DNA from: an uncultured Acidimicrobiaceae bacterium
Lineage (GTDB): Bacteria > Actinomycetota > Acidimicrobiia > Acidimicrobiales > Aldehydirespiratoraceae
Assembly (NCBI GenBank): GCA_913041415.1
Contig: CAJWHS010000020.1
Coordinates: forward strand, 1 to 35,898
DNA: 35,898 bases
Direction of reading: 5' to 3'
The notes beneath the pieces are model-generated. The model saw only the letters and a list, made by a program, of their open reading frames with translations, did not search any database and was not told the origin of the DNA. How positions within the stretch are numbered: the first letter of the stretch is position 1; each line of letters begins with the position of its first letter. Positions 1-30,717 of the stretch are shown here, one piece after another. The translations under genes and the position numbers were made by a program.

Positions 1-1381
1 GGATGACGAAGAAGCTGCCCACCGGCATGAACAGCATCGTGAGGATGATGATCGTCGGTCGTTCGCCGATCGCGTCCTGCAGGAAGGCGGAGAGCATGCC
101 GCCACCGATGCCGCCGATGGCGAACATGAAGAAGGTGATGATCGCCGTGCCCATGCCGCGCAGGCGGTATGGCACCACGCTCTGGATCGACGGCTGGATC
201 ATCGCGAACGCAGCGCCGAGGAAGGTCGTGTTGAGGGCGCCGACGGCGGCGAACAGCCACACGTTGGGCATGAAGTACTGGATGGGCACCAACAAGGTGG
301 CGGGGAGCAGCAGCAGGCCGAGGATGCGGAGTGCGCCGTTGGGGTTCTTGCGGAAGGTCTGGTCGAACTTCCGGCCGACCCAGGGCAGGAAGAGGATCAG
401 CAACACGCCGGCCGGTGCGACCGCGAGGCCACGTTCGAGTGCGTCGAGACCGAATTCTTCTTCGAGGAAGAAGCTCTGAATCGATTGGGCGGGGAAGAGC
501 GCGAAGCCGATCGCCGCCATCGCGAGGGTCATGTAGCGGATCGTGTCGATTCGCCAGATGCGAGCGAAGGCGGCCTCGACGGAGATCGGGGCCTCCTCCT
601 TGCGCTCGAGGCCGGTGCCGAGGACGTCCTGCTTCTCCCATTGACCGCGTTCGGGTTCAGGGATGAAGAAGGCGAGGACGCCGAGGATGGCGACGGGGAT
701 GCCGAGGATGAAGTAGGCCCAGCGCCAGCCAGCGACGCCGCCGGCGATTGCGGCGATGCCACCGACGAGGATCGGTGAGACAGCGCCGAAGATGCGACCC
801 ACGCCGGCGTTGGTGGCGTACATGCGGCCGCGAGTGGCGATCGGATAGGTGTCGGCCAGCAGGGTCGAGTGGACGGTGATCGTGTTGGCCTTGGAGATGC
901 CGGCGAAGAAGCGGGCGACGAACAACATGAAGGCGTTGACCGCGGCGCCGGACAAGAACACGAAGAAGCCGAAGGCGAGGCTGGCAACACCGACGATCGG
1001 GCCTCGGCGTATCCGGTCGGCGAGCCACCCCATGGGGCCGGCGCCGAGCACGAAGAACGCCACCGATGCCGTCGAGATGAAGGTGATCGTGCCGTCGGAG
1101 ACGCCGAAGGTCTCGGCGATATCAGGGCCGAGGATGTTGATCGCGGCCTGCTCGAGTTCGTCGAGGGAGTTGAGCAGCAACAACACGACGAAGGTGAAGA
1201 AGCCGCCCTTGCGGAGCCCTTCTTTGAGCGGCATCGCTTCGCTGCCGACACCGGGCAGGAGGTCGTCGGCGAAGATGACGTCGGCCGAGCGTTTGGCCTG
1301 ATTCGCCTGGCGGGCGGCCTCTGCATCGAGCACTGCGGCGGTGAGCGACGACGCGCTTGTCGAGTCCTCGATATCGCTCAC
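1..1381 (-). CDS. MFS transporter, C-terminus cut by window edge
   Basis: Major facilitator superfamily permease that would move a small solute across the inner membrane; the substrate is unknown. Reading the complement of 1381 down to 1 gives about 460 residues with no stop, so the gene continues past the left edge. A soluble N-terminal stretch of about 55 residues is followed by hydrophobic helices beginning FFTFVVLLLL. The loop after TM2 reads GWLADRIRRG, the MFS motif A. A second helix bundle follows a central charged loop (EPERGQWEKQD). The start is GTG at 1381 with GGGGGA 3 bases upstream; an in-frame stop lies further up. A 19-bp palindrome lies 75 bases upstream of the start. The neighbouring nitroreductase points the same way, 116 bases upstream. 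The family call is firm; the substrate cannot be told. Confidence 0.88.
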   Translation of the reverse strand, partial: MSDIEDSTSASSLTAAVLDAEAARQANQAKRSADVIFADDLLPGVGSEAMPLKEGLRKGGFFTFVVLLLLNSLDELEQAAINILGPDIAETFGVSDGTITFISTASVAFFVLGAGPMGWLADRIRRGPIVGVASLAFGFFVFLSGAAVNAFMLFVARFFAGISKANTITVHSTLLADTYPIATRGRMYATNAGVGRIFGAVSPILVGGIAAIAGGVAGWRWAYFILGIPVAILGVLAFFIPEPERGQWEKQDVLGTGLERKEEAPISVEAAFARIWRIDTIRYMTLAMAAIGFALFPAQSIQSFFLEEEFGLDALERGLAVAPAGVLLILFLPWVGRKFDQTFRKNPNGALRILGLLLLPATLLVPIQYFMPNVWLFAAVGALNTTFLGAAFAMIQPSIQSVVPYRLRGMGTAIITFFMFAIGGIGGGMLSAFLQDAIGERPTIIILTMLFMPVGSFFVI

Positions 1382-1455
1382 GCGTCCCCCAACGGTGTTT
1401 GCAGCGGCTTGGTCCCGCAGGACCCTAGGCGACCGCTCGAAGCGGGACCAGACAA

Positions 1456-1474
1456 ACCTGACGATCCGTCAGGT
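1456..1474. promoter_or_regulatory. 19-bp palindrome, candidate operator
   Basis: ACCTGACGATCCGTCAGGT: two perfect 8-base arms around an ATC centre, in the gap between the nitroreductase stop (1498) and the MFS start (1381). The form TGACG-N3-CGTCA resembles TetR-family operators. It has no T-run, so a terminator is less likely. The half-site CCTGACGATCCG occurs again on the minus strand at 5735-5746, 15 bases upstream of the amidohydrolase start. Confidence 0.5.
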
Positions 1475-1497
1475 CACCGGCCGTGATGGCTGTGGAG

Positions 1498-2229
1498 TCA
1501 GCGACGGGGTGGTCCGGCGCTGGTGTGGCGGGTGCCGGGTGGGTCGACCGCCCATGCCGGGCTCTGGCCCCACACACCGTCGTAGACGAAGTGGTCGAGT
1601 GGGCGGCGACGGACGGGTCCGTGGTTGCCAGCGGGTTTGCCGAGGGTGACGGTCGCAGCGAGGAAGACCTCGTCGGGGATCTGCAGCAGGGACCGCAGTT
1701 GGGTTTCGACGGTGGCGTGCCACATCGTCACGACCCCGCCGTAGCCGAGGCCGCGGGCGGCGAGCAGCAGATTCTGTATCGCAGGGTAGACCGAGGCGCC
1801 TTCGGTCGAGGTCGGGTCTCGGTGGCGGATGAGCGTGGGGAGGATGAGGGCGGGCACGTCGCTGAGGCCGTCGACGTAGGTCTCCATGCTGCGGGCCATG
1901 CGCGCCTTGGGCGAGTCGTCGGTGATGCCGCTGCCTTCGTCGTAGCCGTCGTTGCGTCGCTTGGCCGACCACAGGCGTTGGGCACCCTCGGCGATCAGCT
2001 GTTTCGCCTGGTGAGCGACGTCGCCATCGGTCAACACGATCATGCGGAACTGTTGGCGATTGCTGCCCGTCGGGGCCCGTGACGCTGCGAAGCAGATGTC
2101 GCGCAGCACCGATTCCGGCACGGGCGCGTCGGCGTAGCGCCGGATCGATCGCGTTGTCGCGATGCCCTCGAGGAGGCCGATCGAATCGTCGGGGGTCGGA
2201 ATCTGGTCGAGGCCGTCGGGGGTCGCCAT
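1498..2229 (-). CDS. Nitroreductase family protein
   Basis: FMN-dependent NAD(P)H oxidoreductase of the nitroreductase fold, 243 residues. These enzymes reduce nitro groups, quinones or related electrophiles in the cytoplasm. The N-terminal FMN signature is clear: RSIRRYADAPVP near residues 27-38, then SRAPTGSNRQQF near 50-61. The later LLLAARGLGYGGVVTMW is the usual helix before the second flavin contact. The C-terminal 35 residues are proline and arginine rich and look unconserved. The ATG at 2229 is preceded by TAGGGT at 2236-2241 with a 6-base gap, which suggests a leaderless mRNA. It is divergent from the phosphotransferase (75 bases between starts). The physiological substrate is unknown. 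Confidence 0.9.
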   Translation of the reverse strand: MATPDGLDQIPTPDDSIGLLEGIATTRSIRRYADAPVPESVLRDICFAASRAPTGSNRQQFRMIVLTDGDVAHQAKQLIAEGAQRLWSAKRRNDGYDEGSGITDDSPKARMARSMETYVDGLSDVPALILPTLIRHRDPTSTEGASVYPAIQNLLLAARGLGYGGVVTMWHATVETQLRSLLQIPDEVFLAATVTLGKPAGNHGPVRRRPLDHFVYDGVWGQSPAWAVDPPGTRHTSAGPPRR

Positions 2230-2235
2230 GCCTGG

Positions 2236-2241
2236 ACCCTA
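2236..2241 (-). promoter_or_regulatory. -10 hexamer of nitroreductase promoter
   Basis: TAGGGT on the minus strand, 6 bases before the ATG at 2229. With a start about 7 bases downstream the transcript would begin at or next to the start codon. Confidence 0.5.
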
Positions 2242-2290
2242 GGGGGCGTCGCGCCCCGCACGAATTTCGGAGCGCTGGGCGATCGAGAGC

Positions 2291-2296
2291 TAGTGT
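2291..2296 (+). promoter_or_regulatory. -10 hexamer of phosphotransferase promoter
   Basis: TAGTGT, 8 bases before ATG 2305. It overlaps the alternative GTG at 2293, which argues for the ATG as the true start. Confidence 0.5.
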
Positions 2297-2304
2297 CCGC
2301 ATCG

Positions 2305-3471
2305 ATGCCGAAGCCGAAGGACACGTTCATCCCGAACACACCCGACGAACTCACTGCCGCCTGGGTGGGTGAGGCGCTGCTCGGGGCCGGGGAGGCGTGC
2401 ACGGTCGAGGACATCCGCGTCGAGCCGCTCGGCGGTGGTGTGGGCATGACCGGCCAGACCGTCCGGGTTCGGATCGAGGGCGATGGTGCGCCGGCCACTG
2501 CCGTCGCCAAGTTCGCGGCGTCGCAGGCCCAGACCCGTGGCATCACGGAGTCATACGACTCCTATGCCCGGGAGATCCGCTTCTATGAGGGGTACGCCGA
2601 GCGGGTCCCGGTCCGCACCCCCAGGTACCTCGGCGCCGATTACGACCCCGGCACGCACGGCCAGCCTGGCCCGGTTGTCGTGCGGATTATCGAGTCGCTG
2701 CCGGTCAGGGTGAAGCGGTGGATCTCGCGCAACACGGTCAAGTACCTGCGCCCGACCAAGCGCCGCTATGCGCTCCTCATCGAGGATATGGGCGATGCCG
2801 GCTCGGTCTACGGGCTCGGCGAACCCCCCGGCGACGACGAGTTGCGCGCTGCGCTCACGGCGCTTGCCGGTGTGCACGCATCGTTCTGGAAGTCACCGGA
2901 GCTCGATCAGGACGACGAGACCTTCGTCCAGTTGGTCACCTCCACCCCGACCTTGCTGAGCGATGTCGCCCGCACGGCGGCGTTGTCGGTCGCCGAGGCT
3001 CGTTACGACTGGTGCGGTCCGGCCGAGCGTGAGGTGCTCGAGACCGCGACGCATCGCTTTCCCGAGAACATCACATGCGCCAACGAACGCTGGGCGCTTG
3101 TGCACGGCGACAGTCGTAGCGACAACTTCATGTTCTCGCCCGACGGTGAGGCGATCATCCTCGACTGGGCGATGGTGTCGCGTGGTCACCCGGGCTTCGA
3201 TGTCGGCTACCTGCTCAGCAGCTGCCTCGATGCCGACCGCATCGAATCGCTCGGCCCACTCGTCGAGCACTACCTCGGCGCGCTCACCGGCCTCGGGGTC
3301 GACTTCGACCCAGCTGAACTCCGGCGTGGCGTCGACGCAGCGTACGAAATCAACGCGGTGCTCCAGTTGCTGACCCTCACGGTCTTCGAGGGGCAAGGCG
3401 ACAACACCGGCTCGGAGATGGCCGATCTGTGGTTGCCTCGCGTTGCTGCCGGACTCACCCATTCCTGGTAG
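2305..3471 (+). CDS. APH-type phosphotransferase family protein
   Basis: Protein-kinase-like phosphotransferase of the aminoglycoside phosphotransferase or ecdysteroid-kinase-like group, 388 residues. It is expected to transfer the gamma-phosphate of ATP to a small molecule; the acceptor is unknown. The catalytic loop HGDSRSDN (His267, Asp269, Asn274) and the metal-binding ILDW (Asp287) are intact. A glycine-rich N-terminal stretch (PLGGGVGMTG) and AVAKF with a plausible ATP-binding lysine come before them. ALLIEDMG is the usual hinge segment. The start is taken as ATG 2305; GTG 2293, in frame, would add four residues but lies inside the -10 hexamer. The gene is convergent with the SDR, 12 bases away. 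Such proteins sit next to acyl-CoA and xenobiotic catabolism genes in many actinobacteria, and a resistance role is not implied. Confidence 0.85.
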   Translation: MPKPKDTFIPNTPDELTAAWVGEALLGAGEACTVEDIRVEPLGGGVGMTGQTVRVRIEGDGAPATAVAKFAASQAQTRGITESYDSYAREIRFYEGYAERVPVRTPRYLGADYDPGTHGQPGPVVVRIIESLPVRVKRWISRNTVKYLRPTKRRYALLIEDMGDAGSVYGLGEPPGDDELRAALTALAGVHASFWKSPELDQDDETFVQLVTSTPTLLSDVARTAALSVAEARYDWCGPAEREVLETATHRFPENITCANERWALVHGDSRSDNFMFSPDGEAIILDWAMVSRGHPGFDVGYLLSSCLDADRIESLGPLVEHYLGALTGLGVDFDPAELRRGVDAAYEINAVLQLLTLTVFEGQGDNTGSEMADLWLPRVAAGLTHSW

Positions 3472-3483
3472 CCCGACCCGACC

Positions 3484-4407
3484 TCAGGTCATCTTGGGCA
3501 TGCCGTGGTGCGGGGGAACCTCGAGGCGGCTGATGGCGTCGGCTCGGCGATGCAGCAGATCGACGGTGTCGCGGAGGTCGTTGGTGATGATGTAGGTGCG
3601 GGCGACAGTGCTGTTGACGACCATGTCGCCTTGGGCGTCGAGGTCGGCTTCCTTCACGTCGCGACCCGACCGCTCAAGGAGGGCCTTCATCTCTTCGAAC
3701 GACAGACTCTTGCGTCCGGTGCCCTCACCAATTCGCTGGAGGTGTTCGGGGCGGTTGCGTTGGGCGGTGAAGAGGCCGGTGCGCTGGAGACCGCCGGCGG
3801 GGTAGAAGACTGATGCTCGCAGCTGGGTGCCTTCGGATTCGAGGTTGTGGTGCAGTGCTTCGGTGAAGCAGCTGACGGCTGCTTTCGACGCGGCGTAGAC
3901 CGATGCCGTGGGCACCGGGGCGAAACCGCCGTCGCCCGATGACGTATTGACGACCTGACCGGGATGGCCGCCGTCGATCATGCGGGGCACGAATTCTGAG
4001 GTGCAGATGGCCGTGCCGAAGACGTTCACGCCGAAGCACCAGCGCCAGTCGTTGGGTTCTTGCTGCCACGGCTTGCCGCCACCGCCGGAGGTGACGCCGG
4101 CGTTGTTGTAGAGGAGGTTGACCTTGCCGTGGCGCTCGTAGACGACGTCGGCGAGGGCCTTGACCGATGCTTCGTCGGTGATGTCGGTGCGGATGCCGGT
4201 GACGTCGCCGAGAGCGCTTATTTCGGCGACGGTCTCGTCGATCGCCGACTGTTCGATGTCGGCGATGACGACCTTTGCCCTGTGGCGCAGTAGCGCGCCG
4301 ACGATGCCTTTGCCGATGCCCGATGCGCCGCCGGTGACGACGGCGACCGAGTCGCTGATGACGATGTCCTGAAGGGCGGTGGTCTGGTCCTGGGTCTGCT
4401 CGCTCAT
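3484..4407 (-). CDS. SDR family NAD(P)-dependent oxidoreductase
   Basis: Short-chain dehydrogenase/reductase, 307 residues, interconverting an alcohol and a ketone with a nicotinamide cofactor. The cofactor motif TGGASGIG is at residues 25-32. Asp50 at the end of beta-2 points to NAD rather than NADP. NNAG is at 101-104, the catalytic Ser is in NTSSGDGG near 156, and the YAASK pair is Tyr171/Lys175. The C-terminus is about 50 residues longer than the 250-residue classical form. The ATG at 4407 overlaps the stop of the upstream amidohydrolase by four bases (ATGA), so the two are translationally coupled and probably act in one pathway. The substrate is not evident. Confidence 0.93.
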   Translation of the reverse strand: MSEQTQDQTTALQDIVISDSVAVVTGGASGIGKGIVGALLRHRAKVVIADIEQSAIDETVAEISALGDVTGIRTDITDEASVKALADVVYERHGKVNLLYNNAGVTSGGGGKPWQQEPNDWRWCFGVNVFGTAICTSEFVPRMIDGGHPGQVVNTSSGDGGFAPVPTASVYAASKAAVSCFTEALHHNLESEGTQLRASVFYPAGGLQRTGLFTAQRNRPEHLQRIGEGTGRKSLSFEEMKALLERSGRDVKEADLDAQGDMVVNSTVARTYIITNDLRDTVDLLHRRADAISRLEVPPHHGMPKMT

Positions 4408-5720
4408 GCGACGACCTCCTCACGTTGGTTGAGTGGGTTCATGCCCGGGCAGCCCTTGGCTCGCTCTGGGATCTGCGAGTAGTCGATCGGGTTGGCGACC
4501 TGCGCCTTGGTGGGGCAGAACTGTTCGGCGAGCGGGAGAAGCGCTTCGAGATCAAAGCCGTAGACCTTTGCGGCGTTCGCGGTGAGCATCTGCGTGGTCT
4601 CCTCCACCGTGTAGTTGGCGAAGGTGAGGCGGAGGTGTTTCTCTGTGTGGGGGTGGCTGCCTTCGATGTGGGGGTAATCGCTGCCCCACATCACCTTGTG
4701 GGTACCGACCGATCTGGCGATGTCGGTCTCGGACGGCCGCAGGAACGAGGCCCCGATGTGGCACTGGCGGTCGAAGTATTCGCTCGGCGTCAGCGACATC
4801 TGGGCGACGGCCTGGCCGCCGAAGATCGACTCCGAGCCGTAGCGGCTGTACTTCATGCGGTGGTGGAAGCTGTCGAGCTTCGCGAGCGTGTCGGGCACCC
4901 AGGCGGTGCCGGTTTCGGTGATGACGTAGTCGAGTTTGGGGTGGCGTTCGAACACGCCGGAGAACATCAGGTGCCACAGCGCGCGCTGGGTCCACCACTG
5001 GACCTCGAGCATGAACATGGCGAGCGAGGCGGGGAAGTGGTTGCCGAAGTTTGGTGACGCGCCACCGGCGTGGTGGTTGAGCGGCATGCCGTGGGCGGCG
5101 GCTGCAGCCCAGATGGGCTCGTAGCTGTTCGAGTAAAGCGGTTCGAAGGGGGAGTCGGGTGGCGCTCCCGGCACCAGCACGCCGCCGGTGAGGCCCTGTT
5201 CGGCGGCCCATTCGATCTCGGCGACCGAGCTCTCCACGTCACCCAGGAAGATCTGAAAGACCCCGGCGCGGCGGGTGGGGGCCTCGCTCACGAAGTCGGT
5301 GAGCCAGCGGTTGTGGGCCCGTAGCCCGGCCCAGCGGTACTCGAAGTTGTCGGCGTAGGCCGGTGCCTCGAAGCTGCTCGCCGCCGGCGGCGCGAACGGA
5401 GGCTGGGTGTTCGGGAACAGCACGGTGGCGACGACGCCGTCTTGTTCCTGCTCACGGAGACGGCGTTCGCTCGACCAGTTGCGGTCACCGAACTCGTCGG
5501 GGTCGCCATCGACGCCGACCTCGAGCGGCGAGCGCTTCATGTCTTTGTACATCGCCTTTTGGCGGGCGACACCGGCTTCGATGTCGTCGGCCCAGGCGTC
5601 GAAGTCGGCGTGGTATTTCGTCTCGAGGTACTGCTTGTAGTCGCGCACGCTGGCGCCGCAGTGGGCGTCGGCGGAGACAACGATGTGGTGATCGGTTTCG
5701 GGAAGCGCAGGGTTCGTCAC
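4404..5720 (-). CDS. Amidohydrolase family 2 protein
   Basis: TIM-barrel metal-dependent hydrolase or decarboxylase of the amidohydrolase-2 group (PF04909 type), 438 residues. The first strand reads VVSADAHCG, with one His where many relatives have HxH. NHHAGG near the middle gives the strand-5 type His, and WGSDYPH near residue 345 gives the expected strand-8 Asp. EVQWW and RHPKLDYVITETG are typical of this actinobacterial group. The GTG start at 5720 is followed by TNPALPETDHH; no ATG lies nearby upstream. A half-copy of the 1456 palindrome, CCTGACGATCCG on the minus strand, lies 15 bases upstream. It overlaps the SDR by four bases. Related enzymes decarboxylate aromatic acids or hydrolyse ring lactones; the reaction here is unknown. 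Confidence 0.87.
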   Translation of the reverse strand: MTNPALPETDHHIVVSADAHCGASVRDYKQYLETKYHADFDAWADDIEAGVARQKAMYKDMKRSPLEVGVDGDPDEFGDRNWSSERRLREQEQDGVVATVLFPNTQPPFAPPAASSFEAPAYADNFEYRWAGLRAHNRWLTDFVSEAPTRRAGVFQIFLGDVESSVAEIEWAAEQGLTGGVLVPGAPPDSPFEPLYSNSYEPIWAAAAAHGMPLNHHAGGASPNFGNHFPASLAMFMLEVQWWTQRALWHLMFSGVFERHPKLDYVITETGTAWVPDTLAKLDSFHHRMKYSRYGSESIFGGQAVAQMSLTPSEYFDRQCHIGASFLRPSETDIARSVGTHKVMWGSDYPHIEGSHPHTEKHLRLTFANYTVEETTQMLTANAAKVYGFDLEALLPLAEQFCPTKAQVANPIDYSQIPERAKGCPGMNPLNQREEVVA

Positions 5721-21902: not shown

Positions 21903-23435
21903 CTAGTTGATGCCCTTCTCGACGCCCTCCCAAAAGGGAGCGCGCAGCTTGAACTTCTGCAGCTTGCCCGTGGCCGTGCGAGCGAGCTCCTGACGGAAAT
22001 CGACCGAGGTCGGACACTTGTAATGGGCGATCTTCTCTCGGCAGTAGTCGATGAGATCTCGCTCGCTGACGTCGGCAGCGTCGCCGATCACCACGAGCGC
22101 CTTGACCGTCTCACCCCACTTTTCGTCGGGCACGCCGATCACCGCCACCTCCTCGACGGCAGGATGCGAGAACAGGCAGTCCTCGACCTCGATCGACGAG
22201 ACGTTCTCTCCGCCGGAGATGATCACGTCCTTCTTACGATCCTGCAGGGTGAGATAGCCGTCATCGTCGATCACACCACCGTCGCCGGTGTGGAACCAGT
22301 CGTCGGCGAGCGCCTCGGCTGAGGCCTCCGGGTTGTTCCAATACGACTTCAGGATGTGGTTGCCCCGGGCCAGCACCTCGCCCTCGAGATCGGTGGACAT
22401 GGTGATCCCCACCGCCGGCACACCCTGACGGCTCAGTTTCGACGCCCGTTCGGCTGGGGTGTCGTCGTCCCACTCCTGACGCGAGCGGTTGATCGTCAGC
22501 AGCGGCGCCGTCTCGGTGAGGCCATAGATCTGGATGAACTCCCAACCGAGCTCGGTCTCGACCCGCTCGATCGTGCGGGTGGGCGGTGGAGCGCCGGCCA
22601 CGACCATCCGGACCTTGTCCTTCCCGGGAATCTTGCCATCCCACTCGGCAGCGGCGTCCAGAATGGCGGTGACCACCGCCGGCGCGCCGCACAACAGCGT
22701 CACGCCGTACGTCGCGATGCGGCGCAGGATCTCCGGACCATCGACCTTGCGAAGGTTGACCTGCGGCACCCCCATCGCCGTCGTGGCGTACGGCATGCCC
22801 CAGCCGTTGCAATGGAACTGCGGAAGCGTGTGGAGATAGACGTCGCGGTCGTTGACCCCCGTGTGCCAGCCGAAGATGGCGGCGTTGCTCCACAGGTTGC
22901 GGTGGGTCATCTCCACCCCCTTGGGGCGGGCGGTGGTGCCGGAGGTGTAGTTGATGGTGGCCGTGGCGTTCTCGTCCGGCGCCCACGGGCGGGCCTCAGC
23001 GTCGACCTTGAAAAGCGAGTCGGACTCCTCACCCGAGATGAAGCGATGCTTGACCTTGATGTCGCCGAGCGTGTCTTCGAGTTCAGGATCGAGGATCAAC
23101 ACGTCACAGCCCGAGTGGTCGACGATGTACTCCACTTCGTCGGGTCCGAGTCGGAAATTGATTGGCACCGCCACACGCCCCCACGCGCTGGCACCGAAAA
23201 GCGTGGTTAGCAGGCGGGCGGAGTTCTGCGACACGATGCCGACACGAGCACCCTGCTCGAGACCGAGGTCGTCGAGGCCAGCCGCCATGCCCTGGGCCAG
23301 GTCGTAGAACCGCCCATAGGTGAGGTCGCCCAGGCTGGGCGCCGGCTGGTCCGGCTCGTCATAGATGCCCACTCGGTCGCCGTACACGATCCGGGCTCGC
23401 TCAAGGTGGTCACGGATGGTCATCGGTGTCTGCAT
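21903..23435 (-). CDS. Fatty-acid AMP ligase / acyl-CoA synthetase
   Basis: ANL-superfamily adenylating enzyme, 510 residues, forming acyl-AMP and then acyl-CoA. NYTSGTTARPKGVEMTH is the P-loop-like motif, IQIYGLTETAPL is motif A5, WFHTGDGGVIDDDGYLTLQDRKKD covers A7-A8, and TATGKLQKF carries the catalytic C-terminal Lys. The pattern is that of medium/long-chain acyl-CoA ligases. ATG 23435 is chosen for its GGGGGA Shine-Dalgarno 3 bases upstream; ATG 23423 and ATG 23453 are in frame. It lies close to the ole genes and could supply their acyl-CoA, although it is not co-transcribed with them. It is divergent from the S4 gene with 89 bases between starts. Confidence 0.92.
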   Translation of the reverse strand: MQTPMTIRDHLERARIVYGDRVGIYDEPDQPAPSLGDLTYGRFYDLAQGMAAGLDDLGLEQGARVGIVSQNSARLLTTLFGASAWGRVAVPINFRLGPDEVEYIVDHSGCDVLILDPELEDTLGDIKVKHRFISGEESDSLFKVDAEARPWAPDENATATINYTSGTTARPKGVEMTHRNLWSNAAIFGWHTGVNDRDVYLHTLPQFHCNGWGMPYATTAMGVPQVNLRKVDGPEILRRIATYGVTLLCGAPAVVTAILDAAAEWDGKIPGKDKVRMVVAGAPPPTRTIERVETELGWEFIQIYGLTETAPLLTINRSRQEWDDDTPAERASKLSRQGVPAVGITMSTDLEGEVLARGNHILKSYWNNPEASAEALADDWFHTGDGGVIDDDGYLTLQDRKKDVIISGGENVSSIEVEDCLFSHPAVEEVAVIGVPDEKWGETVKALVVIGDAADVSERDLIDYCREKIAHYKCPTSVDFRQELARTATGKLQKFKLRAPFWEGVEKGIN

Positions 23436-23524
23436 GCGTCCCCCGGAGGTCATCCCCGCCGTGCTCAGCTTGGCCGTTCGGCCGCAACGGAACAAGTGAG
23501 AGGGCAGCCTGCCACACTGATACC

Positions 23525-23902
23525 ATGGCTGTGCGCGTCGACAAGTGGTTGTGGGCGGTTCGAGTCTTCAAGACCCGTCGTCAGGCCACCAATGCCTGCA
23601 CGGCAGGGCGGATCCGCATCAACGGCGACCTCGCCAAACCTGCGTCGAAGGTGAAGGTCGGCGACGTCGTCCAGGCCGCTCGACGCGACCACATGATCAT
23701 CTATGTCGCTCACGAACTGCTTGAGAAGCGGGTGTCGGCCCCGCTGGCGGCCGCTGCGGTCGAGGACCGTTCGCCGCTACCGCCGAAGAAGCAGGATCAT
23801 CTCGATCTCTCGGTGTTCGCCCAGCGCGACCGGGGCAGCGGTCGCCCGACGAAGAAGGACCGCCGGGCGATCGAGAAGCTGCGCGGCGAACGACGCAGGT
23901 GA
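23525..23902 (+). CDS. RNA-binding S4 domain protein (Hsp15-like)
   Basis: Small basic protein of 125 residues with an N-terminal S4 RNA-binding domain: VRVDKWLWAVRVFKTRRQATNACTAGRIRINGDLAKPASKVKVGDVV (residues 3-49). In Escherichia coli Hsp15 binds stalled 50S subunits carrying nascent chains; a similar ribosome-rescue role is likely but unproved here. The C-terminal 40 residues are lysine and arginine rich (PTKKDRRAIEKLRGERRR). The ATG at 23525 precedes the first conserved Val-Asp-Lys-Trp; the upstream open frame overlaps the divergent ligase and is rejected. It is convergent with oleD at 9 bases. Confidence 0.9.
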   Translation: MAVRVDKWLWAVRVFKTRRQATNACTAGRIRINGDLAKPASKVKVGDVVQAARRDHMIIYVAHELLEKRVSAPLAAAAVEDRSPLPPKKQDHLDLSVFAQRDRGSGRPTKKDRRAIEKLRGERRR

Positions 23903-23911
23903 TCCGGCGGC

Positions 23912-24883
23912 TCAGCCGTCGCCGAACGAGGCGGCGAGTCGGACCCAGCCGTTAGCGAGGCTGACCTCGGGGGCCCAGTCCAATGCGCTGCGGGTCTCGC
24001 GCTGATCGAACCAGTGGGCGGTGGAGAGCTGCTCGGCCCCGAACGCGGTCATCGGCGGTTCGCCGTCGCGCCTGCTGCGCTCCCATACGGCCTCGGCAGC
24101 GGCGCTGCCGGCGATGGCGGCCCGGGCGGGCACGGTACGAGGCGACCAGTCGACGCCCGCAGCGGCAGTGATCCGCGCGATGAGCTCGTTGATGGTTCGA
24201 GGCTCACCATTCGACACGACGAAAGCCCGACCGCCGACTCCGGGGAGGGCATCGAGCGCAGCGAGCAGTGAGGTGGCGGCATTGTCGACCCAGGTCGTGT
24301 CGACGAGTGCCAGGCCCGAGCCGATCAACGGCATGCGGCCGTTGCGGGCTCGATCAACGATGCGGCCAATCAACTGGGTGTCGCCCGGCCCGATGACGAG
24401 GTGGGGGCGAACGGCGACGACCGGCATCGTGTCGTCAGAGGCCGTGAGGACGGCCCGCTCCGCCATCGCTTTGGACACCGAGTAGTGGCCGCGGGCCTGC
24501 TCCGGGTCGGCCGGCGCAGCACCTTCGCCGCTGATCGACGAGCCGTCATGGGCGACTGACGGGCTCGAGACGTACACGAACCGCGACACACCTGCGGCAC
24601 GAGCTGCAGCGTGCACCGCAGCGGTGCCATCGACATTGATCGCCTCGAAATCGGCCCAGTCGCCGACTGGATCCACCTTCGCAGCAAGGTGGATCACTCC
24701 GTCGACCCTTGCCATCGCAGCATCGACGACGCCGGCATTGGTGACCGAGCCGAGGTGCTCGACCACCCGGTCGAAACCGCAGGGGGCGCGTTGTAACACG
24801 ACGACGTCGTGGCCGGCGTCGAGCAGCCGGGTGACCGTGTGGCGGCCGAGCAGGCTGGTGGCACCGGTGACAAGCACCCTCAT
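23912..24883 (-). CDS. oleD: 2-alkyl-3-oxoalkanoate reductase OleD
   Basis: Extended short-chain dehydrogenase, 323 residues, predicted to reduce the 2-alkyl-3-oxo acid made by OleA to the 2-alkyl-3-hydroxy acid with NADPH. The cofactor motif GATSLLG is at residues 7-13. Catalytic Ser is in YVSSPSV and the YxxxK pair in HYSVSKAMAE. HLAAKVD and AVRPHLVIGPGD are typical of the 3-beta-HSD-like group to which OleD belongs. The assignment rests on both fold and context: its ATG overlaps the stop of oleBC by four bases (ATGA). The downstream neighbour is the S4 gene on the other strand. Confidence 0.87.
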   Translation of the reverse strand: MRVLVTGATSLLGRHTVTRLLDAGHDVVVLQRAPCGFDRVVEHLGSVTNAGVVDAAMARVDGVIHLAAKVDPVGDWADFEAINVDGTAAVHAAARAAGVSRFVYVSSPSVAHDGSSISGEGAAPADPEQARGHYSVSKAMAERAVLTASDDTMPVVAVRPHLVIGPGDTQLIGRIVDRARNGRMPLIGSGLALVDTTWVDNAATSLLAALDALPGVGGRAFVVSNGEPRTINELIARITAAAGVDWSPRTVPARAAIAGSAAAEAVWERSRRDGEPPMTAFGAEQLSTAHWFDQRETRSALDWAPEVSLANGWVRLAASFGDG

Positions 24884-27480
24884 GGGTTGCGAACCGATCC
24901 ACCCTCGAGCACGCCGGTCGCCCAGTCGGCGAGGTGGGTGCGGTCGATCTTGGAGTTGTGGCGACGATCGACCGGAAGCGAGGCGACCTCGAGACACGCC
25001 GCCACGTCGAGGCCGGTCGCCTCGGCGACCGCTGTACGGATCCGGTCGATGCGATCGAGCGAGCTCTGACGAGGGCGCCGACCGGCATCGCTCGTCTCTG
25101 CGATCACGACCACCACCTGGGCCCCGGCGGGTCCGACGCCGACGGCAGCCGACCGACGGATGCCGTCGAGCATGTCGACAGCCCGTTCGATCGGGGTCGG
25201 CGCAACCGGACCGGTCGCCGTGCGGATCACGTGGCCGGTTCGGCCACCGATCCAGAGTCGGCCGTCGGCGTCGATCGTCCCGATATCGCCGGTGGCGTGC
25301 GTGCCGTCGGCGGGGGAGGCGAGGTGCGTTGTGTGCCACAGGCGGTCGTAACCGAGCCGCTGATGGGCGGCCCGCACCCGAACCTCGCCGAGCAAGCCAG
25401 GCTCGGAGGTGGGAAGACCGGTCGGTACACCGAGCTCGTCGAGTGGATCGATGAGGAGCTTGACGCTGTCGACGGGCATCCCGACACACACCCCGAGGTG
25501 ATGGAGCGCGTCGGGACCGAGCGACTCCAGCGAGACCAGGTCAATGTCGGCGACCGGCAAACATTCGGTCATGCCGTAGGGCGTGTGCGCCGCCGCGTTC
25601 GGAACGAGTCGATCGACTGCGGCCCGCAGCACGTGGCCGGGTACCGGCGCACCAGCTGAGAGCAGGAGACGGACATGGTTGAGCGCCGTGCGGTCGCGGG
25701 CGCCGAGCTCGTCGAGCGTTTCGAGCACGCTCAGGATCGCTGCCGGCGAGGCGAACACGAGCGAGGCGCCGACCGCCTGGACGGCGTCTAGCAGCGTTGG
25801 TGCGGTCAGGGTGCCAGGGGAGCTCACGTCCATGTCGGGCACGGTCGAGGGAATACCCATCGCCGGGCCGTACAGCGCAAACGGAGCGAACGCGGCGACG
25901 AGCGAATCGTCGGTCGAAATGTTGTACTGCGCGACCAGCGTGCGGATCTGAGTATCGATGCGGGCAGCGCTGTAACGCACCCCCTTCGAGGGTCCGGTCG
26001 CTCCCGATGTGAACACCACCGCCGCCTCGGCGTCGGGATCGACCGCCGGCAGCGGCACGCTCGGCGCGTCCTGTAGCGACGCCAGGTCATGCTCCACGCC
26101 GAGCAGTCGGCGGGCCACACGATGCGTCGGCTCGACGGCGATGCGGCGCCCCGGCCAGCGAAGCGTCCGCGCCGCGGCAAGCGCCCGCCGAATCCCGATC
26201 AGGTGGTTGGGGTGGGCGACCTTCATCGCCGCACCCATCTGGGCCGGGCCGAGCCCACCATCGATCAGCACGGGCACTGCGCCCATCCGCCAACAGGCGT
26301 ACAGGGTGATGGCGAGATCGACGCCCGGCGGGATCATCACGGCCACCCGATCGCCGACCTGCACGCCGCCAGTGCCGAAGAGGCCCTCGGCGGTGCGCTG
26401 CACCAGTTCGTCGAGCTCGCCGAACGTGACCGAGCGGCCGTCGGCACCCATCTCACGGATCGCAATCCGATCGGCGATCGCTGGGTCTCGAAGCGCCGCA
26501 GTCAGGTCGACCGGCGCCGAAAGCGGTGGTGGCGTCTCATCGGTGCCGAGCGTCTGGAGCCAGTCGACGACGATCGAGGCGACGTCGGTGTCCTCGGAAA
26601 CGAGATGCCCGGCCTTCGGGTGGCGGTGCACGTCGGCGTGGGGGAGCCGAGCCTCGAGATCGTGCAGATAGATGTCGGAGAACACCCGATCACCGGCACC
26701 CCAGACCAGCAGGGTCGGGACATCGCCTAGGCCGGCGAGCCCAGCGGCCACGGCGTCGAGCGCCGCCGCCGACGGATGGTCGGCTTCGAGCGGGATGTCC
26801 GCAACGAACTCGCCAATGGCCTTTCGGCGATCCGGCGTGTCGTACGGCGCCAGATAGCCGCGACGGATCTCGGCGGGGGTCCGAGGATTCGACAGCTCGA
26901 ACATGCCCCGCAAGAACGCAGAGGTCTCGACCGTGACCTGCCCTAGCCACAACGGCCGTCGGGCGTTTCGGATCAGGGTCGGCGCCGACGACTCCGCCGG
27001 CTGATGCACTGCCGTGTTCGTGAGAACCAGACCTACTATGTCGAGGCCGTCGTGGTTCGCGTGGACATGCTGCAACCAACCCAAGGAGACTGGGCCGCCC
27101 CAGTCGTGAGCGACGACGACAACGTCGCCGCTGAGCTCGAGCTCGTCGGTGAGCGCTAACAGATCGGCGATGCGATCGCCCAGCCTACGTAGCTCACCGG
27201 AGCGCTCCGAGAAACCCATCTCGAGCTGATCCGGGGCGATCACCCGCACATCGTCGGGCACCGCGGCAGCCAGATGGCGCCATGTGTAGGACCAGGTCGG
27301 GTTGCCGTGCACCGCCAGAACGGTGAGCCGGGTGTCGGCGGTCGCGCCGGTATCGAGCAGATACCAGCGGCGGGTCACCCCTCGGTGATCGGGAGCGTCG
27401 ACGAAAAGCGACCAGGAAGCGTCCCAGCCGTCGAGGTCTGCAGCCGGCCGCAGGCGCGAAGCCTGCGGCTCGGGGTTCAC
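24880..27480 (-). CDS. oleBC: OleB-OleC fusion: beta-lactone decarboxylase plus beta-lactone synthetase
   Basis: Fused enzyme of 866 residues. The first 305 residues are an alpha/beta hydrolase of haloalkane-dehalogenase type: HGNPTWSY near 58, nucleophile Asp126 in AHDWGG, acid Asp in AGDRVF, His in KAGHLVSED. This is OleB, which releases CO2 from a beta-lactone to give the cis-olefin. The rest, from about residue 325, is an ANL adenylation domain with FTSGATGPSKGV near 490, PYGMTEC, TGDIGTID and a late HNSKIDR lysine segment. This is OleC, which closes the beta-hydroxy acid to the beta-lactone with ATP. GTG 27480 overlaps the oleA stop as GTGA; GTG 27483, one codon up, is also possible. Fusions of this type are known in actinobacterial ole clusters. 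Confidence 0.9.
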   Translation of the reverse strand: MNPEPQASRLRPAADLDGWDASWSLFVDAPDHRGVTRRWYLLDTGATADTRLTVLAVHGNPTWSYTWRHLAAAVPDDVRVIAPDQLEMGFSERSGELRRLGDRIADLLALTDELELSGDVVVVAHDWGGPVSLGWLQHVHANHDGLDIVGLVLTNTAVHQPAESSAPTLIRNARRPLWLGQVTVETSAFLRGMFELSNPRTPAEIRRGYLAPYDTPDRRKAIGEFVADIPLEADHPSAAALDAVAAGLAGLGDVPTLLVWGAGDRVFSDIYLHDLEARLPHADVHRHPKAGHLVSEDTDVASIVVDWLQTLGTDETPPPLSAPVDLTAALRDPAIADRIAIREMGADGRSVTFGELDELVQRTAEGLFGTGGVQVGDRVAVMIPPGVDLAITLYACWRMGAVPVLIDGGLGPAQMGAAMKVAHPNHLIGIRRALAAARTLRWPGRRIAVEPTHRVARRLLGVEHDLASLQDAPSVPLPAVDPDAEAAVVFTSGATGPSKGVRYSAARIDTQIRTLVAQYNISTDDSLVAAFAPFALYGPAMGIPSTVPDMDVSSPGTLTAPTLLDAVQAVGASLVFASPAAILSVLETLDELGARDRTALNHVRLLLSAGAPVPGHVLRAAVDRLVPNAAAHTPYGMTECLPVADIDLVSLESLGPDALHHLGVCVGMPVDSVKLLIDPLDELGVPTGLPTSEPGLLGEVRVRAAHQRLGYDRLWHTTHLASPADGTHATGDIGTIDADGRLWIGGRTGHVIRTATGPVAPTPIERAVDMLDGIRRSAAVGVGPAGAQVVVVIAETSDAGRRPRQSSLDRIDRIRTAVAEATGLDVAACLEVASLPVDRRHNSKIDRTHLADWATGVLEGGSVRNP

Positions 27481-28499
27481 CACTCGATCTCGACAATCGC
27501 TGCGTTGATGCCCGAACCCATGCCCTGGAACATCACGCCGTCGCCTGGTTCGAGGGTGTGCTGCACGCTGGCGAGCGTGACGGGCATGGCGGCCGGACCC
27601 ATGTTGCCGTACTCCGGGAAGCTCCGGACGACCCGATCACCATCGATCCCGAGCGTGTCGATCACCGCCTGGGTGTGCACCGAGGAGACCTGATGAAGGA
27701 TGTAGTAGCGCATGTCGAACCACCCCTCCTTGTCGCCGGCGTCCTCCCACCCGAGCTTGGCGACCTCGGTGCCGGCTTCGAGCAGACCGCGGGTGTCGGT
27801 TCGCATGCCCTCGAGCGAACCGACGCAAAGTTCGTGATGCTGCGACGCAGCCCGGAAGAAGCCACCCTTCACCCGGTGGCTGCCCGGGTTCTCCGAATGG
27901 CGACCGATCACCATCGCCGCCGAACCCGAACCCAGGGTGAGGGTCGCGAAGTTCTCGAACAGATCCACGATCGTTGCGTCTTCGGCGAGCAGCCTCTGGA
28001 TGGTTGTCTCATGGATCTGGCGGGTGCCTTCGCCATCGACGACAAGGGCGTAATCGATCTGGCCGGTCTCAATCATCGAGCCTGCGATCTGAATGCCGTT
28101 GAGAAAGCCCAGGCACGCGTTCGAAATGTCGAAGTTCATGCAGGTCGACGGAAGCCGCAACAGGTCGTGCACGGTGACCGCGCTCGACGGCTCGAGCCGC
28201 TCACGGCACACGCTCGAATCGACCACCAGCCCGATGCGGCTTCGATCGATACCCGAAGACGCGAGCGCCTTCTCACCCGCCATCGCTGCCGCCTCCGTGA
28301 ACGACACACCCTCGGGCCACTGGCGGCGCTGGCTGATACCGGAGAGCGACTCGAGCAGGCCCTTGGTCGCTCCCGTGCGCTCGTAGAACGGCGCCAGACG
28401 CTCATCAATCTCGGCCGAGGTTACGACCTCGGGCGCATCGCACGCTTCGACAGACACGATGGCGACGTCGTCGAAACTGAAAGTGGCATTCCCAAGCAC
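27477..28499 (-). CDS. oleA: Head-to-head acyl condensing thiolase OleA
   Basis: Thiolase-fold enzyme of 340 residues that condenses two fatty acyl-CoAs to a 2-alkyl-3-oxo acid. The catalytic Cys129 is in SNACLGF, His269 in LHQVSSVHT and Asn299 in GNMGPAAMP. The His-Asn spacing of 30 equals that of Xanthomonas OleA (His285, Asn315). The distinctive OleA glutamate, which comes from the partner subunit, is present in VCRERLEPSSA near residue 103. FabH-type 3-oxoacyl-ACP synthase III is a relative, but the glutamate and the oleBC-oleD context favour OleA. The GTG start at 28499 opens LGNATFSFDDVAIV, which aligns with the family start. It overlaps oleBC. Confidence 0.92.
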   Translation of the reverse strand: MLGNATFSFDDVAIVSVEACDAPEVVTSAEIDERLAPFYERTGATKGLLESLSGISQRRQWPEGVSFTEAAAMAGEKALASSGIDRSRIGLVVDSSVCRERLEPSSAVTVHDLLRLPSTCMNFDISNACLGFLNGIQIAGSMIETGQIDYALVVDGEGTRQIHETTIQRLLAEDATIVDLFENFATLTLGSGSAAMVIGRHSENPGSHRVKGGFFRAASQHHELCVGSLEGMRTDTRGLLEAGTEVAKLGWEDAGDKEGWFDMRYYILHQVSSVHTQAVIDTLGIDGDRVVRSFPEYGNMGPAAMPVTLASVQHTLEPGDGVMFQGMGSGINAAIVEIEW

Positions 28500-28606
28500 A
28501 GTCGGATTTTCCTGTCTCGCCCGATGGTGGCTATGGGCGAATTCCGGCCCTGACCCTACGCAACCTTACGGTGCTATGCGCCCCTCAGCGAAGAATCCCC
28601 CGCAGT

Positions 28607-29944
28607 TCAGCGACGATGAACCGACACGCCGTCGACCCACACCTCAGCGATGTCGTGGGGACCAGCGAGGCGCACGAGCTTCTCGAACCGCCGCGCCTCG
28701 TCGTCGAGCGCAAGATGGCGGATCACCCCACCCGGGGCATCGAGGTCGAACACGACGGCATCGAACCGGTGTCCCGGCTCCAGCAGACCAACGGGCAGGC
28801 CGGCCGCCTCGGCGGCACCCGCCGTCGCCAGCCAGAAGCCGGTGACCGTGTCGATTGCAGCATCCGGCACACCACGCTCATCGGCGTCCTTGCGAGCGTC
28901 GACGCCATCCTGGCGGATCCGGGAGAAGGTCACGGCGTCGTGGATCTGCTGGAACACCCCGACGCGCACGCCGGCACCGATGTCGGTGGCTAGGCCGACG
29001 CGGGCCCCGCGTGTCAGCGCGTCGGGAAGTGGCAGCACGGCGTTGGCGAAGTACGCGTTGCTGATCGGACAGTGCGCAATCACCGCACCCCGCTCGGCGA
29101 TGAGGTCGATGTCGCTCGGACGCACATGGTTCGCATGCGCCAGCAGGGTGTGCTCCCGCAGGAGCCCGAAGGCGTCGAGCGCCTCGGTGTCGCTCGTGCC
29201 GAAGCGTTCGAAGGCGTAGTTGTGCTCCCAGTCGCTCTCGGAGCAATGGGTTTGTACCAGCGTCCCGGTTTTCTCGGCGAGACGCCCGAGCCCGGCCAGC
29301 ATCTCGTCGGTGCAAGCCGGTGCGAACCGTGGCGTGATGATCGGCCGGACCAGGCCCCGACCGGCGTCGATCGCAGCGATGTCGGCGATCGACCGACGGC
29401 TCGCGTCAATCCCCGTGACCGCATCGTGATCTCGGTAGAAGTCCGGCGTGCCGGTCGGGTGATCCATCGCCACGCGGCCGACGAACGCCCGCTGACCCTG
29501 CGCGACGCAGGTTTCGGCCAGGATTGTGGTGGCCTCGCCGTGAATCGACGAGAGGTAGGCCGCCGTGGTTGTGCCGTGCCCGAGAAGGGTGGCCACCAGG
29601 TCGGGGTAGACCGCCTCGGCGACGGCCCGATCAGCGAAGCTCGCCTCCAACGGGAACGTGTAGGTGAACAGCCACTCGTCGAGCGGGAGATCGAGCGCCG
29701 TGCCGTTCTGCTGCCACTGCGGCGCATGGAGGTGCAGGTCGATGAACCCCGGAGTCAGCACCTGGTTGTCGCCGAGCACTCGGTGATCGGGTGACGTCTC
29801 GGCGAGCACCCGCGCTGCATCGGTTTCGGCTCGTTCGACCGCCGTGATCTCGCCGTCGACCACCGCAATGACGACGCGGCCGGCCTCGAGGTGATCCGGG
29901 GTGGGCGTCTGGAAACGGGTCGCCTCGACGGTGAACAAACTCAT
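28607..29944 (-). CDS. guaD: Guanine deaminase
   Basis: Zinc amidohydrolase of 445 residues predicted to convert guanine to xanthine and ammonia in purine salvage. PGFIDLHLHAPQW (HxH plus the APQ guanine-deaminase signature) is near residues 75-87. THCSESDWE supplies the third His and Glu, HANHVR and HCPISNAYF follow, and ATDIGAG gives the Asp. Length and motif order match GuaD. A related deaminase acting on another purine is possible but less likely. ATG 29944 overlaps the upstream DsbA-like stop by four bases, and the next gene downstream, oleA, starts 107 bases later. Confidence 0.88.
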   Translation of the reverse strand: MSLFTVEATRFQTPTPDHLEAGRVVIAVVDGEITAVERAETDAARVLAETSPDHRVLGDNQVLTPGFIDLHLHAPQWQQNGTALDLPLDEWLFTYTFPLEASFADRAVAEAVYPDLVATLLGHGTTTAAYLSSIHGEATTILAETCVAQGQRAFVGRVAMDHPTGTPDFYRDHDAVTGIDASRRSIADIAAIDAGRGLVRPIITPRFAPACTDEMLAGLGRLAEKTGTLVQTHCSESDWEHNYAFERFGTSDTEALDAFGLLREHTLLAHANHVRPSDIDLIAERGAVIAHCPISNAYFANAVLPLPDALTRGARVGLATDIGAGVRVGVFQQIHDAVTFSRIRQDGVDARKDADERGVPDAAIDTVTGFWLATAGAAEAAGLPVGLLEPGHRFDAVVFDLDAPGGVIRHLALDDEARRFEKLVRLAGPHDIAEVWVDGVSVHRR

Positions 29945-30717
29945 GTGGCGGCCTTTTCGTCTCGGTCGCTCGCAAGGTGCCCACGGCAATGGCCGCCGGT
30001 CCAGTCCTCCTCAGCCGGTTCGGCGCTGAGCCCGCCGAGCATGGGCAGCTGGGGCACCTCACGCATGCTGCGCTTGATCTCAGCGAAGCCCGGGAACGAC
30101 GCCAGCGTGGTGACCGCATCCCACAGGGCGACGGACTCGGCCCTCGCCGGCACCCGAGAGATCACCGGGCCGAGAAACGACACCGACGGCGCGTCGGGGC
30201 GATGGAACGTGATGATCGGCGTGCCGACATTGCGCCCCGTGCGGCTCAACGCCAGCTCGGTCTCCGCGTTGAGCTCCTGATCCCACGATGGATCGTCGAG
30301 GGCGCTGGCATAGTCGGGGTCGACGCCGGCTGAAGCGAGGACGGCTCGGGCATGGGCATCGGTGCTGAGGTGCTCCCGAATCCCGACCCCGCGCGCCTCG
30401 TCGCGCGTGAGATCCGAGTAACTCTCCCCGAAGGCCCGCACCAGCGACCCCATCGGGGCCCGGCCGAGATCGGCTCGGATCGCCGCCACCCGAAGGAAGC
30501 GAAGATCTGCCGTGTGACCCTGCTCGTATTCGGGCGCGAACTCGGTGGCGTAGTCCTTGTCCTTATTGAGCAGGCGCAGAGAGATGAACCGCCAATCGAC
30601 CAACAGGCCAGTCTGGGCGGCCACATCCTCCACCCAACGGGACGTGATGCAGGCGAACGGGCACACCGGATCCCAGAAGAACTCGATGTCGCACCCGGAT
30701 ATCGAAGCGTCGCTCAC
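29941..30717 (-). CDS. DsbA-family protein, mycothiol-linked type
   Basis: Thioredoxin-fold protein of 258 residues resembling the mycothiol-dependent reductases of the Rv2466c type. The N-terminal motif reads FWDPVCPFACITSRWV (residues 13-28), so the active site is CPFA and not CPWC, with another Cys directly after it. The helical insertion (residues about 60-150) and TPIITFHRP, the cis-Pro loop, are in place. It would reduce a disulfide or a mycothiol conjugate in the cytoplasm; no signal peptide is seen. The GTG start at 30717 lies 7 bases after the stop of the upstream oxidoreductase. It overlaps guaD by four bases. Confidence 0.82.
   Translation of the reverse strand: MSDASISGCDIEFFWDPVCPFACITSRWVEDVAAQTGLLVDWRFISLRLLNKDKDYATEFAPEYEQGHTADLRFLRVAAIRADLGRAPMGSLVRAFGESYSDLTRDEARGVGIREHLSTDAHARAVLASAGVDPDYASALDDPSWDQELNAETELALSRTGRNVGTPIITFHRPDAPSVSFLGPVISRVPARAESVALWDAVTTLASFPGFAEIKRSMREVPQLPMLGGLSAEPAEEDWTGGHCRGHLASDRDEKAAT

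Follow-up and report, generated by a model that had tools for sequence, protein, structure and literature searches.

An intact oleA-oleBC-oleD operon of the fused type in an uncultured Acidimicrobiales bacterium, with signs of cassette movement between lineages

Does a 35,898-nucleotide stretch from an uncultured member of the Acidimicrobiales (the window, contig CAJWHS010000020.1) encode a complete route from acyl-CoAs to long-chain olefins, and how did these genes come to sit in this lineage? An initial annotation, made from the sequence alone, had read the region as a complete oleA-oleBC-oleD operon of 4.6 kb, with OleB fused to OleC and 4-base overlaps at both gene joints. The coordinates and gene order proved exact on re-reading (Table 1), the operon measured 4,588 bp, and one frame between oleA and oleD covered both OleB and OleC. 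The reading as a complete operon was borne out by the family matches, the active-site residues and the outcome of the comparison of OleA with FabH, and chance is not realistic because three adjacent genes give full-length family matches. In its genes, frame, overlaps, residues, family placement and domain model, the region is an intact operon of known type whose enzyme chemistry is not new. We give a probability of about 93% to its being a functional operon of the actinobacterial fused type.

The 3' end of oleA reads ...GAGTGGTGA, and the two joints are GTGA (oleA/oleBC) and ATGA (oleBC/oleD), each a 4-base overlap. The length of the first depends on the choice of start, because the oleBC frame carries two GTG codons in a row (27481-27483 and 27478-27480), three bases apart: starting at the second gives 4 bases and at the first, upstream, 7 bases. 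The -4 spacing at oleA/oleBC is also found in the closest relatives of the window, and the oleBC/oleD overlap is -4 in 66 of the 90 loci; the three genes are probably translationally coupled. The source assembly is a draft (2.68 Mb in 143 contigs). The single OleB-OleC frame was uninterrupted in several members of the genus clade, and the fusion is thus not an assembly slip. A guanine deaminase gene lies 107 bp upstream of oleA on the same strand and is itself adjoined by a gene for an Rv2466c-like mycothiol-dependent nitroreductase (window 29941-30717), an order kept in congeners. Neither Rfam families nor tRNAs were found in the window, so that no tRNA-anchored element was seen.

Table 1. 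Positions of the ole genes of the window and of the loci compared with them (positions in the window for the first four rows, in the named locus for the others).
Feature	Position	Strand	Description
oleA	27477..28499	minus	340 aa, GTG start; 420.8 bits on NF006720, X. campestris OleA matched over the full length
oleBC fusion	24880..27480	minus	866 aa, GTG start; Pfam Abhydrolase_1 54-297 and AMP-binding 337-711
OleBC inter-domain linker	26503..26550	minus	about residues 311-326; low confidence, without secondary structure in the model
oleD, 2-alkyl-3-ketoacid reductase (extended SDR)	23912..24883	minus	323 aa, ATG start; NF042422 273.9 bits
Unfused oleA-oleB-oleC-oleD, Acidimicrobiia family f59	L194 2366-6874; L195 1847-6355		
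Granulosicoccus MAG ole operon	L041 4952-9659		
Calcineurin-like metallophosphoesterase, sister species	L193 2181-3095; L191 2669-3583		site equivalent to window 23902-28607
Divergent-oleA ole lineage	L014 (G032) 363-4056; L013 (G004) 1492-4642		

We recovered a window-type operon in five congeners (G000-G003 and G005), flanked, where the contigs allow, by the guanine deaminase gene and an S4-domain gene. At the equivalent site, G004, G006 and G007 carry a metallophosphoesterase gene that is absent from all five window-type genomes. The OleBC of G004 is 47% identical to that of the window, against 71% for a genome of another family, and forcing the G004 protein to group with the window was rejected by the AU test (p-AU 7.6e-99). 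G004 belongs to a second ole lineage, present in the same family and genus, in which oleA is divergent (on the opposite strand) to oleBC-oleD; the OleA of another member, G032, groups with those of Xanthomonas campestris and of the unfused family f59, apart from the window. The metallophosphoesterase at the same site and the second ole lineage within the genus point to cassette exchange, and the pattern agrees with a horizontal exchange of this cassette in the genus, ancient duplication followed by loss being a possible alternative. The operon may have replaced the metallophosphoesterase gene in this genus or have been replaced by one, both directions of the swap being possible. The neighbouring acyl-CoA synthetase gene (21903-23495) behaves vertically, its identity being 82-92% in the genus outside the own clade of the window, 77-78% in the family and 68% in G408. 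This gene was also considered as a member of the pathway and rejected, as it is kept at 82-92% identity, with the same neighbours, in congeners that lack a window-type ole operon.

That the operon is a recently acquired cassette, silent or unused in its host, would agree with its patchy distribution (OleA at E <= 1e-60 in 69 of the 395 genomes of the class), with the eight congeners, of which three (G006, G007 and G008) lacked any match at the level of OleBC and one (G004) has the different lineage, and with its occupation of a site where sister species have another gene. We nevertheless consider this unlikely, since the congeners with the operon have intact frames and catalytic residues, and its GC and GC3 do not stand out from those of its neighbours and thus give no compositional sign of recent import. 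The same observations suggest that the operon is kept under selection in its carriers. No relatives of it were found in the viral contigs searched, hence no sign of a phage-borne cassette.

Within the fusion protein, the OleB half spans about residues 15-312 and the OleC half about residues 328-866. The former matches haloalkane dehalogenases by sequence and has all the elements of an alpha/beta hydrolase of that kind (Asp nucleophile, His base, acid and HGNP); the latter has those of the ANL adenylation fold (P-loop TSGxTGPxK, YGMTE, TGD and the C-terminal Lys). In 121 aligned proteins, N60, D126, W127, D264 and H292 of OleB and T491, S492, G493, T495, G496, K499, T638, E639, D732 and R747 of OleC were invariant, and K844 of OleC was kept in 120. 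The initial annotation had made its reading hinge on the role of Asp126, and this residue, which is the OleB nucleophile position when numbered from the GTGA start, is intact together with the rest of the active site. The AlphaFold model of OleBC, built with 39 relatives, had a pLDDT of 91.3 and a pTM of 0.91, and the top Foldseek matches to it were ANL enzymes over the OleC half. We estimate the linker at about 16 residues because the pLDDT falls to 71 in the block 311-320, between helices 300-310 and 328-331. In the comparison of linker lengths that had been proposed, the spacing between W307 and V379 was 72 residues, inside the range of the other fused proteins (67-124) and at its short end.

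The OleC half scored well below the NCBIfam equivalog cut-offs NF045786 and NF045785 (270.5 of 900 and 229 of 850, respectively). These cut-offs are narrow, since the OleC of a complete unfused oleABCD operon of Acidimicrobiia also fails both; the names of the OleC and OleD equivalogs point to Xanthomonas and Shewanella. OleD is an extended SDR with the Ser-Tyr-Lys triad and the N-terminal dinucleotide motif, and its best NCBIfam match was NF042422 OleD, likewise well below the cut-off (580). Its YSVSK motif lies at 134-138, with K138 in 121 of 123 rows and the remaining two masked. In its nucleotide-binding motif, GATSLLG, a Ser at position 10 replaces the middle Gly, as in 53 of the 123 aligned rows.

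OleA, OleC and OleD are common to the olefin and beta-lactone pathways (PMC7064751), and the identity of the product, olefin or beta-lactone, cannot be read from sequence. The operon could then make a beta-lactone natural product, nocardiolactone- or lipstatin-like, with OleB inactive or used only for disposal or self-protection. We regard this as very improbable: the known beta-lactone clusters (lst and nlt) consist of oleA, oleC and oleD without oleB (PMC7064751), whereas OleB is present here, intact and fused in frame, with catalytic positions invariant across the aligned proteins, and the lipstatin-like clusters seen on plasmids are made up of other genes, among them an NRPS and a formyltransferase, and have no annotated OleB. 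Because of the in-frame OleB with its conserved active site, and of the lack of oleB in published beta-lactone clusters, we favour the olefin over a beta-lactone end product; by analogy with characterised systems, a long-chain cis internal olefin is the most likely product of the operon.

OleA scored 420.8 bits against the OleA-type NCBIfam model NF006720 (cut-off 285) and 87.7 bits against the fabH model (cut-off 292.1), whereas the FabHs of the host genome, one of which is encoded next to FabD, scored 317 and 362 with the fabH model and 101-111 with NF006720. Its best solved relatives were the X. campestris OleA structures 3s21/3row (E 8e-80, end-to-end alignment). Cys129, His269, Asn299 and a Glu at 103 had been singled out from the sequence and are all at these positions; they align with X. 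campestris OleA, in which E103 corresponds to Glu117, and are invariant in 153 aligned rows except for two masked residues. The published OleA signature EPxx[AS]x(14,18)DxxNACL (PMC7158056) is present, starting at E103. The proposed phylogeny of OleA against FabH placed X. campestris OleA inside the clade of the window and the FabHs of the genome apart (73 rows); this was a quick tree with SH-aLRT only and long outgroup branches, but the model scores agree with its OleA/FabH split, so that by both measures OleA does not fall inside FabH. A ketosynthase of the FabH kind, serving ordinary fatty acid synthesis and lying among unrelated lipid enzymes, would have the same fold and Pfam domains, but this reading can practically be dismissed given the model scores, the own FabH of the genome, the Glu103 typical of OleA and the operon partners conserved in about 90 loci.

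The four-step Ole scheme is known from characterised enzymes (PMC7064751, PMC7158056), and it is from such homologues that we infer the reactions, product, chain length and benefit of the fusion. OleA would be a non-decarboxylative Claisen condensing thiolase, joining two fatty acyl-CoAs head to head into a 2-alkyl-3-ketoacid, with Cys129 as nucleophile and Glu103 as base for the second substrate, together with His269 and Asn299. OleD would convert this ketoacid with NAD(P)H into a 3-hydroxyacid, which the OleC half of OleBC would adenylate and then close into a beta-lactone. The OleB half, through Asp126, His292 and probably Asp264, would turn the beta-lactone into a cis internal olefin and CO2. 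The fusion would set a 1:1 ratio of the two activities and hold the labile lactone near the decarboxylase.

OleBC fusions have already been published for Micrococcales and Granulosicoccus (PMC7158056, PMC7064751). The clusters of Micrococcus luteus and other Micrococcales (Mlut_13230 and its neighbours) have the gene order, the B-C fusion and the four predicted reactions of the window; the OleBC of the Micrococcales members that were fetched (M. luteus itself not among them) is about 43-50% identical to that of the window, which differs from them by its Acidimicrobiales host and its linker at the short end of the range. Olefins are produced by fused-type Micrococcales clusters, and M. luteus changes its olefin profile when oleA or the entire cluster is exchanged (PMC7158056). 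The oleABCD genes of X. campestris encode the same OleA family, catalytic residues and chemistry, but OleB and OleC are separate proteins according to the literature and the OleA is distant from that of the window in the tree. In the Acidimicrobiia of family f59, the class and the A-B-C-D order are those of the window, but OleB and OleC are separate ORFs, and OleC and OleD are closer to the Xanthomonas models than those of the window.

We found fused OleBC in all of the 80 loci from named genomes, mostly Actinomycetota, spanning Micrococcales, Propionibacteriales, Geodermatophilales, Kineosporiales, Nanopelagicales, Nitriliruptoraceae and Acidimicrobiales; a few of the records bear the names of other phyla. 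Cultured carriers outside Micrococcales were Geodermatophilus obscurus, Modestobacter excelsi, Auraticoccus cholistanensis and Kineosporia babensis. According to a survey of 2020, ole genes were confined among Gram-positive orders to Micrococcales (PMC7158056); the range of fused ole loci is wider. Our search of open-licence papers, a set outside which most subscription journals fall, returned none naming Acidimicrobiia with ole genes and no biochemical or lipid data for any Acidimicrobiia. Among 42 OleA-positive genomes of the class, OleB and OleC formed one frame in 35, the frame was cut or partial in 4, and the 3 genomes of family f59 gave an OleC-only match. In two f59 loci (L194 and L195), OleB (292 aa) and OleC (540 aa) are each encoded by a gene of their own; the order in L194 is oleA-oleB-oleC-oleD, with 4-base overlaps at oleB/oleC and oleC/oleD. 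This overlap of oleB with oleC suggests that the fusion arose from such a pair, the L194-like arrangement being the likely state before fusion. The unfused beside the fused operons of Acidimicrobiia offer a natural before-and-after pair for the role of the OleB-OleC fusion.

Purified OleA of Granulosicoccus condenses C10-C14 acyl-CoAs (PMC7064751). The Granulosicoccus MAG has a fused OleBC and an OleA 61% identical to that of the window and in its clade, although its host is gammaproteobacterial and that of the window actinobacterial. The operon was nested among Acidimicrobiales in the OleA tree as well as in the OleBC tree, and its grouping with the Micrococcales rows was rejected (p-AU 0.006, for a group chosen after seeing the tree). 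The ole genes of this MAG have 60% GC against 53-55% in their flanks. These data point to a donor related to Acidimicrobiia, the difference in GC being consistent with import. Whether Acidimicrobiia are unrecognised olefin makers in which oleA-oleBC-oleD moves as a cassette, with a member of the clade as donor of the Granulosicoccus operon, is to us an evenly balanced proposition. The novelty is modest, lying in the actinobacterial host group and the signs of cassette movement between lineages; it extends the fused-type genes for head-to-head olefins to a large, mostly uncultured actinobacterial class, and matters for distribution and evolution, not for mechanism.

A fused OleBC is also carried by three records titled Acidobacteria or Chlamydiae (L038, L056 and L103). 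In the trees, the two with an Acidobacteria label form tight groups with Acidimicrobiia or Arthrobacter, so that these bins may be contaminated or wrongly labelled. The plasmids searched held no close fused OleBC, the two best-covering places being 33-34% identical and in two pieces each. The next plasmid matches were to OleC only, and both of the two inspected, on plasmids of Streptomyces sp. NBC_01001 (L201 3904-12893) and Rhodococcus sp. H-CA8f (L202 3931-12604), were clusters resembling that of lipstatin, with a ketosynthase, a second ORF, an OleC-like ligase, a reductase, an NRPS and a formyltransferase.
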